Assembly (NCBI RefSeq): GCF_002001105.1
Contig: NZ_MUNP01000073.1
Location: forward strand, 1-42,460
Length of the DNA: 42,460 nucleotides
DNA from: Rhodanobacter sp. C06
GTDB lineage: Bacteria; Pseudomonadota; Gammaproteobacteria; Xanthomonadales; Rhodanobacteraceae
Reading direction: 5' to 3'
Of the stretch, positions 95 to 26,320 are shown piece after piece (the first letter of the stretch is position 1; every line of letters begins with the position of its first letter). The translations under genes and the position numbers were made by a program. Below the pieces are notes generated by a model, which ran no database searches, had not been told where the DNA came from, and was given only the letters and a program-made list of their open reading frames with translations.

Positions 95-535
95 GCAACG
101 GTGGGAGACGTGCGTCCGCAGGGCGGGGAAACGCGCCATGCGCCCACCATCACGACCGTCATGCATAGATCGCGGCTATCGAGAGTGGCGCGAGACGGTG
201 CTTCTCAACAGCCTGCTAGTGGCGGCGACCACTATGGCAATCAGACCATCCTTAGATGTAGACATCGAAATCAGGGTGTTGCACGGCATGCTGCGCTGTC
301 GCTGCGTGAGGCGTCAAGCAACTTTCCTCGTCAGAACAAAGGACTGCTGCGTGAACACGCTTACTGTCGCGTCATGCATGCCGTGCAACACACCACACAT
401 GAGGGTGTAACCGGTTATGGGGCGAAAATAAGGGCGTAGCAGTTGCCACACGAGCCGTCGGTTGAGGATATGTGGGACGCGGCGCACCGCGCTCTTGATT
501 CGGCTTTTCGAGCAGTGCGCGCAGGATGCGCGCTG

Positions 536-790
536 CTTTTCCGGGGCCCCTGGGCGGCGGTGAGGCGGGGACGATCAGGCCGCGCAGCGGGCGAGGCCAT
601 GGATGGCCTCGCCTTTTCGCGCGGGCAGGAGCCCGCTCGAAAAGCCCGGCACCGACTCACGGACGTTCCGTCCATGGAAGGACGGAACGCGCCAACCGGG
701 GTGGCCTTCTCTTTTGGTTACTTTTCTCTTGGCCACGCAAGAGAAAAGTAACTCGGGCGCCGGCAGGCGCACGAAACTGCTTTGTTGCTG
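536..790. repeat. Three-hairpin dispersed intergenic repeat
   Basis: Three perfect inverted repeats follow each other: 591-600 with 603-612 (GCGAGGCCAT arms), 664-673 with 680-689 (CGTTCCGTCC arms) and 717-731 with 738-752 (15-bp arms around GCCACG). The last arm reads TTACTTTTCTCTTG. From memory, this kind of sequence recurs between genes in Xanthomonadaceae/Rhodanobacteraceae genomes and is often mis-called as a small protein ending in LLATQEKSN. Copy number cannot be judged from one window. The outer boundaries are approximate. Confidence 0.6.
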
Positions 791-886: not shown

Positions 887-1936
887 TCAGCGCTTCGCCG
901 GCGCGCTCCGCAGCGGCGCGGTGGAACCGCGCACCACCAGTTCGGGGCTGAAGCCCTCGTTGCCCTCCTCCAGCGGCTCGCCGTTGGCCGCGCGCTGCAG
1001 GTTGCCGATCAGGCGCTGGGCGGCGTGGCGGGCGATCTCCTCGGTGGCCTGGCGCGCGGTGGTGAGCGCGGGCCAGGACTGCTTGGAAAACGGGCTGTCC
1101 TCGAAGCCGGCGATGGAGAGTTCCCACGGCACGCTGATGCCGCCGGAATGCGCGGCGGCCAGCACGCCGGCGGCGATCTCGTCGTTGGAGCCGAAGATCG
1201 CGGTGGGGCGATCCTTCAGCGCGAGCAGCTTGCGCGCGCCGCGGAAGCCGTCGTCGAAGGAGTAGTCGCCGGGCAGGACCAGCTTGCGGTCCAGCGCGAT
1301 GCCGTAGTCCTTCAGCGCGTCCTCGTAGCCCTGGTAGCGCTCGGGACTGGAACGATGGTCGCGGCCGCCCCACAGGAAGCCGATGCGGGTGTGGCCGAGC
1401 TGGATCAGGTGTTCGGTGATCGCGTACGCGGCGTCGCGGTCGTCCACGTAGACGCAGGGATAGCCGTCCCTGGGGTCCTGCCGCGCGGAGATCACCCGCA
1501 TGAACGGGATCTTCGCCGCCGCCAGCGTGCGGATCAGCTCGGGCTGCTCGGACATCGGCGGCGCCAGCACCAGGCCGGCCAGCCGCGCGTGCGCCGTCAG
1601 CGCGACCAGCTCCTCGGCCAGCCGCGGCGAAGTGGAGTCGCAGGGATGGATCTGCAGGCCGTAGCCGCTCTTGCGGCAGGCGGCCAGCACGCCGCTCTGC
1701 ATGCTGATGATGTAGTGCGCGTTGGGGTTGTCGTAGACCAGGCCCACCGCGTAGGCGCGGGTGCTGCGCAGGCTGCGCGCGGACGGATCGGGCCGGTAGC
1801 CCAGCGCGTCGATCGCGCGCTGCACCTTCTCGCGCGTGCGCGCGTGCACCGAGGGCTCGTTGTTGATCACCCGCGAGACCGTCTTCAGCGAGACGCCCGC
1901 CTGCTCGGCTACATCCTTGATCGTGGCGCTGCGCAA
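887..1936 (-). CDS. LacI-family transcriptional regulator (NagQ-like)
   Basis: A LacI/GalR repressor. The N-terminus holds the helix-turn-helix and hinge (ATIKDVAEQAGVSLKTVSRV, then RPDPSARSLRS), followed by a periplasmic-binding-protein-like effector domain with the usual GFEDSPFS segment near the end. The TTG at 1936 is preferred because it leaves three residues before the conserved ATIKDVA and has a GAGG about 8 bases upstream; a GTG at 2008 would add 24 Arg/Pro-rich residues. It lies 109 bases downstream of, and co-directional with, the NagP-like permease. By analogy with the Xanthomonas campestris nag regulon, it probably binds the TGACAACGTTGTCA-type operators at 3416-3429 and 3692-3705 and responds to GlcNAc or its phosphate. 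The family is certain; the ligand is inferred from context. Confidence 0.88.
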   Translation of the reverse strand: MRSATIKDVAEQAGVSLKTVSRVINNEPSVHARTREKVQRAIDALGYRPDPSARSLRSTRAYAVGLVYDNPNAHYIISMQSGVLAACRKSGYGLQIHPCDSTSPRLAEELVALTAHARLAGLVLAPPMSEQPELIRTLAAAKIPFMRVISARQDPRDGYPCVYVDDRDAAYAITEHLIQLGHTRIGFLWGGRDHRSSPERYQGYEDALKDYGIALDRKLVLPGDYSFDDGFRGARKLLALKDRPTAIFGSNDEIAAGVLAAAHSGGISVPWELSIAGFEDSPFSKQSWPALTTARQATEEIARHAAQRLIGNLQRAANGEPLEEGNEGFSPELVVRGSTAPLRSAPAKR

Positions 1937-3459: not shown

Positions 3460-3540
3460 TGTAGGAGCGCACCCTGTGCGCGATGGCTTTTGGTTCCGCC
3501 CCAAGGCGCAAAGCATTCGCGCACAGGGTGCGCTCCTACA
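3460..3540. repeat. REP-like inverted repeat, 24-bp perfect arms
   Basis: The arms at 3460-3483 and 3517-3540 are exact reverse complements, beginning TGTAGGAGCGCACCCTGTGC, around a 33-base spacer. A closely related pair with 21-bp arms occurs at 36172-36241, also between genes. The GTAGGAGCG start resembles REP/BIME elements of Pseudomonas and Xanthomonadales, which are spread by RAYT transposases. No RAYT gene is in this window. Confidence 0.8.
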
Positions 3541-10371: not shown

Positions 10372-13300
10372 TCAGGCAGTGCGGCGCTGCACGGCGCGCG
10401 GCTGCAGCGCCTGCCGCGCCGCCTGCGTCTCGGCGGCGCCCAGCTCCACCAGCGGCACGAACTTGCCCGCGACCTGCGCCGCCATGGGCATGCCGTCGCG
10501 ATACAGCACGCGCGAGCCGGCCACCGCCGGCACCTTGTCGCCCGCCAACACGCTGCCCACCAGGTTCAGCGGATCGCAGCCGCCCACCACGACCATCTCG
10601 CCATCCTCCGCGCGCTGACGGATCGCGCGCAGCGGCGCGATCGCCTCCGGCAACGCGAACTGCTCGCCCACCAGCCCTTCCACGAAACGCCCGCCGCGGA
10701 TCTCGCCACGCGCCTCCAGCCGGCGGTACACGCGCGACAACTCGCGCCAGCGCGGCAGCCACGGCGCCTCGCGCTCCAGCAGCTGCCAGAACACCACGCC
10801 GTAGCGGGCCAGCAGGGCGCGGGCGACATGCTCCAGATTTTCCCCCTCTCCCCTATGGGGAGAGGGTTGGGGTGAGGGGCCACTCTTGCCACTGTCTGCA
10901 TCAGGCGATGCTTCTGCGAGCACCCGCCCCTCATCCGCCCCCTTCGGGGCCACCTTCTCCCCAGCGGGGAGAAGGGAACGAGCTACCAGCGACCAGCGCC
11001 CCGCGTCCTCGATGCCGCCAAACACATGCCGGCGCATGCGCCGGTGCCGTGGCGCCTCGCGCTTCGCCGCGGGCAGCAGCAGGGCGCGCAGGCCGGCGAA
11101 GCTGTCGGCGCTGACGCGGCCGGCGGCGACCAGTTCGCCCAGCGCGTCCTCCAGCTCGGTGCGCAACAGGTGGACGATGGACTGCAATTCGTCGAAGAAC
11201 AGCGCGCCGTGCTCGCGCAGCGCGTCGGCCACCGCCTGCGCCCGCGAGGACAGCAGGCTGTCCTGCGGCGACGATGCCTGCGCGACGGACGTCCAGACGG
11301 CCATCTGCCGGCGCGGCAGCAGCACGATGGGCGTGGCGCGTACCGGTCCGCTGCCGCCGCCCGCGCGCAGGCGGCTCCAGCCGACGCGGCCGGCGCGGCA
11401 CTGCCCGTCCAGCCAGCTCGCCGAATAGTCGGCGAGGCGCGCCGGCAGGATCTCCGCTTCCCAGGCGCCGGCCGCGGCCTCGTAGCCCTCCAGCTGGTTC
11501 AGCACCGCCGGCAGCGCGTCGGGGCCGCGCAGTTGCGTGGCGGAACTCAGGTGTTGCCAGTCGAGCAGGAAGCGCATCAGTTGGCGCCGGCTCACCGGCT
11601 CGATCTCGCGGCGCAGGCGGCCCAGCGTGTAGCGATGGATGCGCGCCAGCAGATGGCGTTCGCACCATTGCGTTTCGGCAAGCGTCGGATCGAACACGCC
11701 CTGGATCACGTAGCCCTCGCCCTGCAGGCGCAGCAGCGCGGCTTCCACCTCGGCGGGCGCCACGCCCGGCGGCGCGGCCAAGGCCTCGACCGTCACCGGC
11801 CCCAGGCCCAGCAGGCGGCCACGCACCAGTTCACGCAGGGCGTCCTCGCGCGTCCATGGTTGCGCCGCATATTCGGCGGGCGCGGCGATGACGGGATGCA
11901 ACACGGCCTCAGGGTGCACGGCTCGCCACAGCGGCAATTTTTCCGCACTGACCCACACCGTGTTTTTCTCCCTCTCCCCCAACATCGTTGCGGGAGAGGG
12001 CGGGGTGAGGGGGAGGCTTTCGGCTTTGCTTGGCTGAGTCACGGGAGAAGCAAGAGCGTCTCCCTCACCCCAGCCCTCTCCCCCTGCCACAGGCAGGGGG
12101 AGAGGGAGTTCAAGGCGCGTGGCGCGCTGGTCCTTCGCCAGCGCGCGCAGCTTGTCGTCCCAGCCGTCGTTCGCCACCGCTTCGTCCACCGTGACCCCGC
12201 CCAGCGCATCCAGCGCCTCGTGCATCTCGTCCACGCTGCGCACCTCGGGCCAGGCTTCCGCGCGCACCGCGGCGATGGCCTCGGGATCGAGCCGGCCCAG
12301 GTCGCCGGCGCCGGCCGGCACGTCCTGGCGCACCGCGCGCGTGCGGCGTTCCTCCAGCGGCGCGTCGTCGAGGAAGGCGTAGGGCGCGGCATTGAGCACC
12401 GCGCCGGCCAGCGGGCTGGGCGCCGCGAGGTCGCGCGCGACGAGGCGGATCGTGCCGGTTTCGAGTTGTCGCAGCAGGCGCAGCAGGCCGTCCACGTCCA
12501 TCGCCTCGCGCAGGCAATCGTGCAAGGTCTGCGCCACCAGCGGATGGTCGGGAATCTGCCGCTCGCCCACGATGTTCTCCAGGCAGGCCACCTGGTCGGG
12601 GAATACCGCGGCGAGCAGGTCCTCGCTCTTCATGCGTTGCAGCTGCGGCGGCGTCTTCTTGCCGCCGATGAAGCGCGGCAGCGCCAGCGCGGTCACCGCG
12701 TTCCAGCGCCAGCGCGCGGGGAACAGCGGCGCGTCGAGCAGCGCCTGCACCAGCACGTGCTCGGCGGAGTTCGAGTGCAGGTAGCGCGCCACTTCCTCCA
12801 GCGGAAAGCTGTGGCTGGTGGACAGCGACAGCACGATCGCGTCCTCGGTGGCCGCCGCCTGCAGCTCGAAGTTGAACTGACGGCAGAAGCGCTTGCGCAG
12901 TGCCAGCCCCCAAGCGCGGTTGATGCGGCTGCCGAATGGCGCGTGGATCACCAGCTGGGTGCCGCCGGACTCGTCGAAGAAGCGCTCGAACACGATGACC
13001 GACTGCGTGGGCAGCACACCCAATGCGGCCTTGGCGCCGGCGAGGTAATCGGCCAGTTGCCACGCGGCGGCTTCGCCCAGGCCCAGTTCGTCACGCAGCC
13101 ACGCCAGTGCCTGCGCTCTTGTCTCCTCCCCCTGCTTGCAGGGGGAGGTTGGGAGGGGGTGCTCCTCTGCCGTAGCAGAAACCGAAGCACCCCACCCCGG
13201 CCCTTCCCTGCCAGCAGGGGAGGGGGAGTCGTGAGGTTCAAGCAAGGCGTCGACTTCCTCGCGCAAGCGCGATACCGCGAACGAGAGTTCGTCCGTGCGC

Positions 13301-15159
13301 CCCGGCGCCTCGCCCAGCCAGAACGGGATGCTGGGCGGCACGCCGTGCGCGTCTTCCACGCGCAGGCGGTCGCGCTCCACGCGCAGGATGCGGTAGCTGG
13401 TGTTGCCGAGCTGGAAGATGTCGCCGGCGAGGCTTTCCACCGCGAAGTCCTCGTGCACCGAGCCGATCACCGTGGCCTGCGGTTCCAGCACCACGAGGTA
13501 GTCGGCGGTGTCGGGGATCGCGCCACCGGAGGTGAGCGCGACCAGCCGCGCGCCACGCCGCGCGCGCAACTGCCGATGCACGGCGTCGCGGTGCAGGTAG
13601 GCCGCACGCGCGCCGCGGCGGGTGGTGAAGCCGTCGGCCAGCATGCGCACCACCGCGTCGAAATCCGCGCGCGCCAGATCGCGGTACGGATGCGCGCCAC
13701 GCACCAGCGCGTACAGCGCATCCTCGTCCCACTCGCGGCAGGCCACTTCGGCGACCAGCTGCTGCGCCAGCACGTCCAGCGGCTGCGGCGGCTGCACCAG
13801 CGCGTCGAGTTCGCCGCGGCGCACGGCATCGAGCAGTGCGGCGCATTCGACCAGGTCGTCGCGCGTGGTGGGGAACAGCCGCGCCTTGGGCGTGCCGCCG
13901 ACCTGGTGGCCGGAACGCCCCGCGCGCTGCAGGAAGGCGGCGATGGAACGCGGCGAGCCGAGCTGGCAAACCAGGTCCACGTCGCCGATGTCGATGCCCA
14001 GCTCCAGCGAGGCGGTGGCGACCAGCACCGACAACTCGCCGCGCTTCAAGCGCTGCTCGGCGTCCAGGCGCTGCTCCTTCGCCAAGCTGCCGTGGTGCGC
14101 GGCGACATGTTCCTTGCCCAACCGCTCGGAAAGATGCCGCGCCGCACGCTCGGCCAGCCGTCGCGTGTTGACGAATACCAGGGTGGTGCGATGTGCCTGC
14201 ACCAGTTGCGCGAGGCGGTCGTAGACCAATTCCCACGCGTCGTTGGACATCACTGCTTCCAGCGGCACGACGGTGAGTTCGAGGGCGAGGTCGCGCTTGC
14301 GGGTGTAGCCCGTATCTATGATGGTGACGCCGCTTTTCGCGTTCGCCTCCTCTCCCCTCAGGGGAGAGGATTGAGGTGAGGGGCGGGTGCTCGCGGAAAC
14401 GTCACCTAGAGCTGGCTCTGATGATGGTCGAGGCGAGAGTGGCCCCTCACCCCGACCCTCTCCCCAAAGGGGAGAGGGAGATGTTGTGCCGACCAAAAAG
14501 TCGGCCACCTCCTCGATCGGCTTCTGCGTCGCCGACAGTCCGATCCGCTGCAGCCGCCGCTGGCACAGCGACTCCAAGCGCTCCAGCGTCAGCGCCAGGT
14601 GCGCGCCGCGCTTGCTGCCGGCCACGGCGTGGATCTCGTCCACGATCACGCTGCGCGTGCTCTGCAGCATCTCGCGGCCGGAGGCGGAGCCGAGCAGGAT
14701 GTACAGCGACTCCGGCGTGGTGACGAGGATGTGCGGCGGCGTCTTGCGCATCCATGCGCGCTCGGCCTGCGGGGTGTCGCCGGTGCGCACCGCGGTGCGG
14801 ATCGCCACGTCGGGCAGGCCGCGTTTTTCCAGTTCCGCGCGGATGCCTTCCAACGGCTCTTCCAGATTGACGTGGATGTCGTTGGACAACGCCTTCAGCG
14901 GCGACACGTAGACCACCCGCGTCTCGTCCGGCAGCGCGCCGCCGTTCGCCACGCCTTCGCGCACCAGCGCGTCGATCGCGGCGAGGAAGGCGGTGAGCGT
15001 CTTGCCCGAGCCGGTGGGCGCGGCCACCAGCACATGGCCACCGTCGCGGATCGCCGGCCACGCCCCCGCCTGCGCCGCGGTGGGCGCGGCGAAGCGGCCA
15101 TCGAACCAGGCGGCGACGGCAGGGTGGAAACCGGTCAGCGGGGAGGCATCCGCTTGCAT
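10372..15159 (-). CDS. lhr: Lhr-type ATP-dependent helicase with four in-frame repeat insertions
   Basis: A 1595-residue superfamily 2 helicase of the Lhr (large helicase-related) family, thought to act in DNA repair. Walker A (APTGSGKT) is at residues 47-54, the DEIH box at 174-177, motif III (LSATQKP) near 209, and the second RecA domain contains [24 protein letters not shown]. The Lhr-core winged-helix and beta domains and a long C-terminal extension follow. Four low-complexity Pro/Gly/Glu-rich stretches interrupt it at about residues 226-275, 643-680, 1016-1067 and 1393-1440. Each is encoded by a palindromic repeat, listed separately. Removing them leaves about 1400 residues, within the usual family size. 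The frame stays open through all four, so the gene is likely functional. It converges on the hexosaminidase gene. Confidence 0.92.
10842..10982. repeat. Palindromic element inserted in lhr, copy 1
   Basis: Two hairpins bound this element: CCCTCTCCCC 10844-10853 with 10857-10866, and CCTTCTCCCC 10953-10962 with 10966-10975. Between them, GAGGGGCCACTCTTGCC at one side and GCGAGCACCCGCCCCTC at the other match the element at 14345-14485 read on the opposite strand. In the Lhr protein it adds about 47 residues, including [15 protein letters not shown]. Boundaries are estimated from where Lhr-like sequence stops and resumes. Confidence 0.8.
11962..12112. repeat. Palindromic element inserted in lhr, copy 2
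   Basis: Hairpins at 11970-11978 with 11992-12000 (CCCTCTCCC arms) and at 12074-12088 with 12092-12106 (15-bp perfect arms around ACA) enclose about 70 bases. It adds about 51 residues to Lhr, including [17 protein letters not shown] and [16 protein letters not shown]. The hairpin-spacer-hairpin layout matches the other copies, but the spacer is different. Confidence 0.75.
13120..13232. repeat. Palindromic element inserted in lhr, copy 3
   Basis: CCTCCCCCTGC 13125-13135 pairs with 13138-13148, and CCCTTCCCTGC 13201-13211 pairs with 13214-13224 with one G-T mismatch. The core sequence differs from copies 1 and 4 (CCTCCCCCTGC rather than CCCTCTCCCC), so it is a related subfamily. It adds about 38 residues to Lhr, including [13 protein letters not shown] and [13 protein letters not shown]. 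Confidence 0.75.
14345..14485. repeat. Palindromic element inserted in lhr, copy 4
   Basis: CCTCTCCCC 14349-14357 pairs with 14361-14369 and CCCTCTCCCC 14456-14465 pairs with 14469-14478. Its spacer shares the GAGGGGCGGGTGCTCGC and AGAGTGGCCCCTC ends with copy 1, but in the reverse orientation. It adds about 50 residues to Lhr right after motif III (residues 226-275, with [16 protein letters not shown]), between the two helicase RecA lobes. Confidence 0.8.
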
Positions 15160-25336: not shown

Positions 25337-26257
25337 ATGACGATCCCGTACACTGCGCCGATGCGTGTCTACATGTACCTCCTTTACCTGCTGCTGCGCC
25401 TGCTCGCGCTGCTGCCGCTGCGCACGCTGCAGGCCGCCGGCGCGCTGCTGGGTCGCCTCGCGCTGTGGCGGCGCACCCGCACCGCGCACCACGTGGCGGT
25501 GAACCTGGCGATCGCCCGGCCCGGGCTGGACAAGGCCGCACGCGCCGCACTGCTGCGCGAGGCGCTGGCCGAGAGCGGCAAGTCGGCCACCGAGATCGTG
25601 AAGATCTGGGGCGGCGGTGCCGAAAGCGCGCTGCAGCTGGTGCGCGAGGTGCGCGGCGAGGCGCTGTTCGACGCGGCGCTGGCCGCGGGCAAGGGCGTGA
25701 TCATCGCCGCGCCCCACCTGGGCTGCTGGGAACTGCTGAATTACTGGCTGTGCCGCAAGACGCCGATGGCGATCCTGTACCGCCCGCCGCGCATCGCCGC
25801 GGTGGAAGGCCTGCTGCGCAAGGTACGCGGCGCGCTGGCGCCGGAGCAGGTGCGCGCCGAGGGCGCGGGCGTGCGCACGCTGTACAAGCGGCTGGCTGCC
25901 GGCGGCACGGTGGGCATCCTGCCCGACCAGAAGCCGCGCGCCGGCGAAGGCGAATTCGCGCCGTTCTTCGGCCGCGACGCGCTGACCATGGTGCTGCTGC
26001 CGCGCCTCGCCGCGCGCACCGGTGCCACCGTGCTGTACGCCTTCGCCGAACGGCTGCCGCAGGGCGCCGGCTACCGCATCCACATCCTGCCCGCGCCGGA
26101 TGGCTTGACCGACGCCGATCTCGGCGTGGCCTGCACTGCGCTCAATCGTGGCGTGGAAGTCTGCGTGGAACTGGCCTTCGCCCAGTACCAGTGGCAGTAC
26201 AAGCGTTGGTCGGCCCACGACCGGCCCAGCCCGTACGACACCGAGAACCACGCGTAG
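25337..26257 (+). CDS. LpxL/HtrB-type lipid A acyltransferase
   Basis: A 306-residue inner-membrane-anchored acyltransferase (PF03279) that adds a secondary acyl chain to Kdo-lipid A. An N-terminal hydrophobic segment ([17 protein letters not shown]) anchors it. The catalytic HX4(D/E) motif is His127-Leu-Gly-Cys-Trp-Glu132. [21 protein letters not shown] follows, as in LpxL/LpxM proteins. The ATG at 25337 has GAAGGTGG upstream; ATG 25361 is also possible. Which acyl position or chain it adds cannot be read from sequence. It diverges from dtd and is followed by a strong hairpin. Confidence 0.88.
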
Positions 26258-26259
26258 GC

Positions 26260-26290
26260 GCGCACCCCCGGATCGAATCCGGGGGTGCGC
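26260..26290. terminator. Bidirectional hairpin between convergent genes
   Basis: GCGCACCCCCGGAT 26260-26273 pairs perfectly with 26277-26290 around CGA, two bases past the acyltransferase stop. The following CTCCTGC resembles the end of the REP elements at 3460 and 36172, so it may be a decayed REP reused as a terminator. Confidence 0.7.
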
Positions 26291-26320
26291 TCCTGCAAAG
26301 ACACTCGGGTTTTCGACGCG

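Follow-up and report, generated by a model that had tools for sequence, protein, structure and literature searches.

Short palindromic repeats are known both between and within bacterial genes. In PMC3733652, repetitive extragenic palindromes (REPs) of the GTAG and CGTC kinds are described inside genes, many of them for DNA synthesis and repair; two REP dimers are reported in one uvrA, different REPs occur at about the same recB site in two Xanthomonas species, and the relation of the tagged to the untagged REP families is said to need study. Rickettsia palindromic elements (RPEs), in-frame palindromic inserts in apparently functional proteins (Ogata 2002; Claverie and Ogata 2003), are also covered there, and PMC2884548 describes short variable segments kept in frame in other bacteria. 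Our subject is a gene for the DNA-repair helicase Lhr in a contig of 42,460 nucleotides from the soil bacterium Rhodanobacter sp. C06 (NZ_MUNP01000073.1; this whole stretch is referred to as the window). Four palindromic elements lie inside this gene and its reading frame remains open through all of them. They are very probably mobile, REPIN-like palindromes (REPIN, REP doublet forming hairpins) which have survived in tolerant linkers, and these linkers have been repeatedly filled and exchanged across the bacterial family.

Palindromic inserts in a single lhr frame

The 1595-residue open frame carries the domain set of Lhr. DEAD, Helicase_C, WH_Lhr, DEAD_assoc, WH3_Lhr and WH4_Lhr all match above the Pfam cut-offs, three of them being Lhr winged-helix models; NCBIfam equivalogs were below their cut-offs among the matches listed. 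No Rfam match was found in the lhr gene. The insert borders, in residues and in coordinates (Table 1), were taken from the alignment with relatives and are close to those proposed in an earlier note on this DNA, which had described four hairpin-spacer-hairpin inserts kept in frame within an Lhr otherwise of ordinary length. Reading frame, Pfam domains and predicted folds agree with that description, as does the 1454-residue open frame of two relatives which have no long insert at any site (L063 and L118).

Table 1. Coordinates of the lhr gene, its four inserts and the GTAG-type REP motifs in the window
Feature	Position	Residues	Strand	Context and palindromes
lhr gene	10372..15159	1595 aa	-	single open frame running through the four inserts
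Insert S1	14347..14484	about 226-271	-	between DEAD and Helicase_C; A-type; hairpins 14456-14478 and 14348-14370
Insert S2	13120..13233	about 643-680	-	between WH_Lhr and DEAD_assoc; T-type palindrome, CTCCCCCTGC...GCAGGGGGAG, different from A type
Insert S3	11971..12108	about 1018-1063	-	Pfam-free stretch between DEAD_assoc and WH3_Lhr; hairpins 12076-12104 and about 11972-12000
Insert S4	10843..10974	about 1396-1439	-	directly before WH4_Lhr; A-type, opposite orientation to S1; hairpins 10953-10975 and 10845-10865
GTAG-type REP motif	3461-3539			inverted pair
GTAG-type REP motif	26254-26296			inverted pair
GTAG-type REP motif	36233			

The best solved structural relative of the window protein is 7lhl, which we take to be the Lhr of Mycobacterium smegmatis. 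Its alignment is interrupted at S1 (query residues 226 and 279 facing chain residues 223 and 226), at S2 (636 and 694 facing 620 and 637) and at S3 (988 and 1077 facing 930 and 968). Folded as single-stranded DNA and compared with dinucleotide shuffles, the four segments gave z values of -3.81, -8.11, -3.97 and -5.87, with none of 200 shuffles as good in any case (the second segment was folded 2 bases short). In their minimum-energy structures, three of the four have a hairpin at either end, closed by an inner stem, and segment 13120-13232 folds chiefly into one long palindrome. The segments at S1 and S4 (14345-14485 and 10842-10982) have 64 nt in common at 84% identity, in opposite orientation.

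Occupancy of the four linkers in relatives

Relatives were drawn from 80 named loci and 12 genus genes, giving 92 loci of which seven repeat a named record. The alignment was made without these seven duplicates and without L096, L105, L109 and L110, which are truncated or split. At 91 of the 92 loci a single open frame contains the best Lhr match. L110 is split near residue 1165 and the L140 match stops at 1495 while its frame continues, a probable frameshift; both positions are outside the four sites. Leaving aside the gene ends (L094 and L104 are extended at the N terminus, and L140 is excepted at its C terminus), insertions of at least 12 residues in the rows of Rhodanobacter, Dyella, Frateuria and Fulvimonas occur only at these four sites.

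A site was considered occupied when it held at least 45 extra nt. By this definition, 105 of the 220 site-by-row cells in 55 close rows (L104 also being omitted) are occupied, 42 at S1, 9 at S2, 22 at S3 and 32 at S4. A palindrome motif is present in 93 of these 105, or in 88 when five cells with only the T motif are dropped; the latter is unspecific since it was found in core windows of the window gene, which were used as a control (2 of 39 with a motif, T only). The occupied cells include A, G and F arms, which are mutually similar, together with the T type, a nested-loop type and, in 5 cells, a GTAG-type REP. The inserts, in which the earlier note saw four events in one gene, are thus not private to this gene: many relatives have the same linkers filled, some through descent and others with different elements. 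On a 61-row tree built without the site columns, presence and absence require at least 12, 4, 13 and 13 changes at S1 to S4. Five rows of this tree are outgroups; S1 is long in two of them and S4 in one, in each case without a motif, so that a few of the changes are not palindrome events.

How much of this pattern is inherited has to be weighed first. Insertions in an ancestor of the family, mainly passed on and later diverged, recombined or deleted with only a few new arrivals, would explain why S1 is filled in 42 of the 55 close rows. Descent is also probable for the S3 insert, because it is alike along its whole length in the window gene, L152 and L065. In L063 and L118 a single hairpin is left at S3, and inspection by eye suggests a decayed one at S1; these look like the products of an internal deletion between two hairpins. 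S2 tells against predominant inheritance. It is unoccupied in 46 of the 55 close rows, nearly all of which have 57 nt there and none of which carries a motif, and where it is occupied it holds three types of palindrome (F, T and GTAG). The empty state of this second linker also shows that the inserted segments are not conserved, ordinary parts of Lhr. The sister gene L152, 95% identical to the window gene over the tree columns, has the S3 insert in common with it and differs at the other sites: S1 holds another element, S2 another palindrome and S4 a shorter insert with one arm. By eye, the reading frame of identical arms at S1 differs between some Dyella and Rhodanobacter. Mainly ancestral insertion therefore appears rather improbable. 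Some copies (L065, L068, L094 and L095) carry a further palindrome nested in a hairpin loop.

The choice of sites could instead reflect a sequence-specific hot spot, in which a transposase recognizes a target motif at each site, in the manner of some IS200/IS605-like elements. The several occupancy changes at each site would fit such a mechanism and a similar pattern is seen at single sites of UvrD and MurL. However, unlike palindromes use the same sites: at least the GTAG type, which occurs in Lhr linkers, and a palindrome of the GGGACTCGGGACTC family, in the UvrD linker of genome G002, are unlike the A arms. At the protein level, S1, S2 and S4 are positions between Pfam domains, and S3 falls in a region free of them. 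When the 658 gaps separating conserved anchor columns are ordered by length range, the four sites take the top four ranks, in the set of 26 outer rows and also in that of 56 close rows. Long linkers make up 36 of the 104 outer-row cells (8, 13, 1 and 14 of 26 at S1 to S4), and a palindrome motif was found in none of them. The same joints thus lengthen by other sequence in the outer relatives, and their position is better explained by tolerance than by a target motif. Of the two possibilities raised in the earlier note, tolerant loops and a hot spot, these alignments favour the first and make the second unnecessary; we regard a hot spot as very unlikely.

A further possibility, which we judge very unlikely, is that the inserts are selected because they help the protein, for example as longer linkers or through mRNA hairpins which slow translation between domains. 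Their position between domains or in domain-free stretches would suit such a role, as would a ratio of nonsynonymous to synonymous substitution (dN/dS) down to 0.33 in some insert pairs. This ratio was calculated for 27 pairs with flanks and then for 18 pairs without flanks; both are chosen sets, the 18 pairs having been picked for similar inserts. In all 18 chosen pairs it is higher in the insert (0.33-1.76) than in the core (0.05-0.22), and conservation of the palindrome can itself bias the insert values, possibly lowering them. Moreover, presence comes and goes along the tree, and L063 and L118 do without a long insert anywhere. Finally, although several such repeats lie at contig ends of the draft and one contig (C44) is self-mirrored, an assembly or sequencing artefact has a negligible probability, the insert-bearing lhr lying within one contig with its frame open and the same insert type occurring in relatives from other projects, including the one- or two-contig genomes G013 and G014.

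Copies elsewhere and the search for a mobilizer

The genome-wide search advised in the earlier note revealed a large family. In the 4.14-Mb draft genome, the core-hairpin pattern gave 88 matches and the arm motif (up to 3 mismatches) 83, the reversed controls giving 0 in both cases. Contig C44 is an exact self-mirror over both pairs of stretches compared (L210/L213 and L211/L212), which looks like an assembly artefact, so that its core-hairpin matches are doubled and a few of the 88 are counted twice. Nineteen distinct two-hairpin copies can be aligned. They consist of an outer hairpin, an inward tail of the GGGGTGAGGGG type, a variable middle, a mirrored tail and a second outer hairpin, the arms being conserved and the middle variable. 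This is the anatomy of a REPIN. Members of the A family are about 120-147 bp long. The window contains GTAG-type REP motifs as well as A-type elements, and two kinds of palindrome therefore coexist there.

The arm motif is almost confined to the family to which Rhodanobacter belongs. Of 121 genomes sampled from the order, 8 contain it in its exact 20-base form; they are 8 of the 19 from this family, and none of the 102 others has it. Within the sample of the class it was found in 3 of 143 genomes, the window genome and two with one match each. Core-hairpin counts in the genus vary from 0 to 123 (15 genomes).

The position of these copies with respect to genes was examined at 86 hairpin or arm places, from the window and 64 fetched stretches. 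These comprise all arm-motif matches and those core-hairpin matches that were listed first, and so cover a part of the copies; palindromes of other types escape this census, and no verdict was possible for those at contig ends. At 12 of the 86, the sequence on either side showed coding signal in the same frame: four in Lhr, one each in UvrD, MurL, phosphoenolpyruvate (PEP) carboxylase and LpdA, two in RibD (on the mirrored contig), one at a DUF559-EpmA junction and one on contig C9. The C9 place (C9:14300) was dropped as an in-gene insert, its open frame having no Pfam match, and the junction (C29:381) was left out as ambiguous since it may be intergenic. Among the places examined, Lhr thus has four inserts and UvrD, MurL, PEP carboxylase, LpdA and RibD one each, those of MurL and RibD appearing one-armed. 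By rough arithmetic, four of nine inserts in a single gene far exceeds random placement. By eye, the UvrD linker (L246-L268) contains palindromic inserts in 8 of the 13 genus genomes where the site was found and the MurL site in 6 of 14. In LpdA, a member of another genus also has an A element in the linker (L277). DUF559 and EpmA are joined by a palindromic element in one open frame in L199 (41-1483, + strand); the element either created a gene fusion or lies in an open gap between two genes.

We also considered whether the element is designed for coding. The 17 copies taken from outside the window (PEP carboxylase holds one) fall into all three length classes modulo 3 (4, 7 and 6 copies, the class of each depending on where its ends were cut). 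On average 2.5 of their 6 frames are open, compared with 2.0 for mononucleotide shuffles, and the idea was rejected. With such lengths and so few open frames, many insertions into genes would be disruptive. A filter is therefore needed, and the copies observed within genes are its survivors.

Candidates for the mobilizing enzyme were sought among Y1 transposases. PF01797 (Y1_Tnp) matches 8 of the 15 genus genomes. All five genomes richest in hairpins (83 to 123) are included, so a Y1 enzyme acting in trans is possible. In genome G003, one Y1 transposase gene (L162) has GTAG-type motifs on both sides and is plausibly the REP-associated tyrosine transposase (RAYT) for the GTAG REPs which also occur in Lhr linkers. 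Two other Y1 loci (L153 and L154) are flanked by other inverted ends. Seven copies of 0.9-1.2 kb flanked by A arms in genome G239 (L270-L276) were considered as a possible autonomous element and rejected: they are nested inverted repeats, some with short tandem repeats, and no Pfam transposase was found in their 9 larger open frames, which gave two weak sub-cut-off matches to other families. No autonomous parent with these ends was found. Target-site duplications, which the earlier note had expected alignment with relatives to reveal, were not recognized by eye, the junctions and flanks being too diverged.

A REPIN-like family compared with known systems

Taken together, the data suggest the following history for mobile palindromes in tolerant Lhr linkers. 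Non-autonomous REPIN-like palindromes, those of the A family as well as related or different types, would move by means of a transposase, probably supplied in trans, and their copies would land widely in the genome. Within genes, selection would keep only those which are in frame, free of stop codons and located in a flexible linker. Lhr is a long, multi-domain protein which appears to offer four such linkers, and in the evolution of the family these may repeatedly have received elements, swapped them for others, grown by nested insertion and shrunk to a single arm. If translated into the mature protein, the inserts would probably form disordered, Pro/Gly/Glu-rich spacers under weak constraint and may be nearly neutral.

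Several observations weigh against this interpretation. Twelve of the 105 occupied cells have no recognized motif and 8 of the 115 unoccupied close cells have one, some of these being short or one-armed copies. The rank of S3 in the outer rows is narrow (fourth, with a range of 16 against 14 for the next gap). The exchange of elements could have occurred by gene conversion instead of new insertion. In the AlphaFold models (mean pLDDT, the predicted local distance difference test score, 56.7 and 64.0), the inserts are mostly coil at very low confidence; pLDDT is low in other parts of the models too, and we therefore give this signal little weight, such poor models offering only slight evidence of disorder. 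With respect to the mobilizer, the arm motif was found within about 1.5 kb of none of the 13 Y1 transposase loci of the genus, and genome G014 has 50 core hairpins and no Y1_Tnp match.

The survival of mobile palindromes in Lhr suggests that selfish palindromes can turn over within conserved coding sequence, beyond intergenic space, and that their surviving copies point to joints of a protein which tolerate insertion. The recurrent sites in Lhr, UvrD, MurL and LpdA could serve as a natural map of insertion tolerance. A broader, tentative idea is that the linkers of large repair helicases might constitute a standing reservoir for competing families of mobile palindromes across the bacterial family, in which these arrive, replace one another, nest and collapse. 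If so, the reservoir would be a natural linker-insertion experiment and a route by which selfish DNA persists in conserved frames, and the mobilizer might not be of the linked-RAYT type.

Literature searches returned no work on palindromes in Lhr or on this repeat family, as judged from the title and start of the abstract among the matches listed, subscription papers being mostly outside their scope. A full-text search with six arm or hairpin stretches gave two papers which, judged in the same way, concern other subjects, and PMC4584326 proved to have no bearing on the matter. The earlier note, which likened the inserts to Rickettsia elements, knew of no such description for this family; it is incomplete in that in-frame intragenic REPs outside Rickettsia are already published in PMC3733652.

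Like miniature inverted-repeat transposable elements, the palindromes found here are short, non-autonomous, have inverted repeats and may be moved in trans. The likeness to RPEs drawn in the earlier note holds for in-frame insertion into genes which stay open, and is one of placement; the host group is different. The likeness to REPINs and REP dimers is more extensive and includes an inverted pair of short palindromes, a variable middle, a lineage-restricted distribution and a high copy number in mostly extragenic positions (88 matches, with coding signal on both sides at 12 of the 86 places examined), as well as in-frame copies in genes and the same recurrence at one site as in the recB case described in PMC3733652. 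In contrast to the tagged REPs, the present arms have no linked RAYT that could be found, and inspection revealed no conserved GTAG or CGTC tag beside 19 arms or in the 19 aligned copies. They also differ from the published intragenic REPs in having four inserts in one gene and several palindrome types at the same linkers, in at least four genera. Intragenic REPs kept in frame are already known; what is unusual at this locus is their number, their recurrence at the same sites and the mixture of families which they represent.

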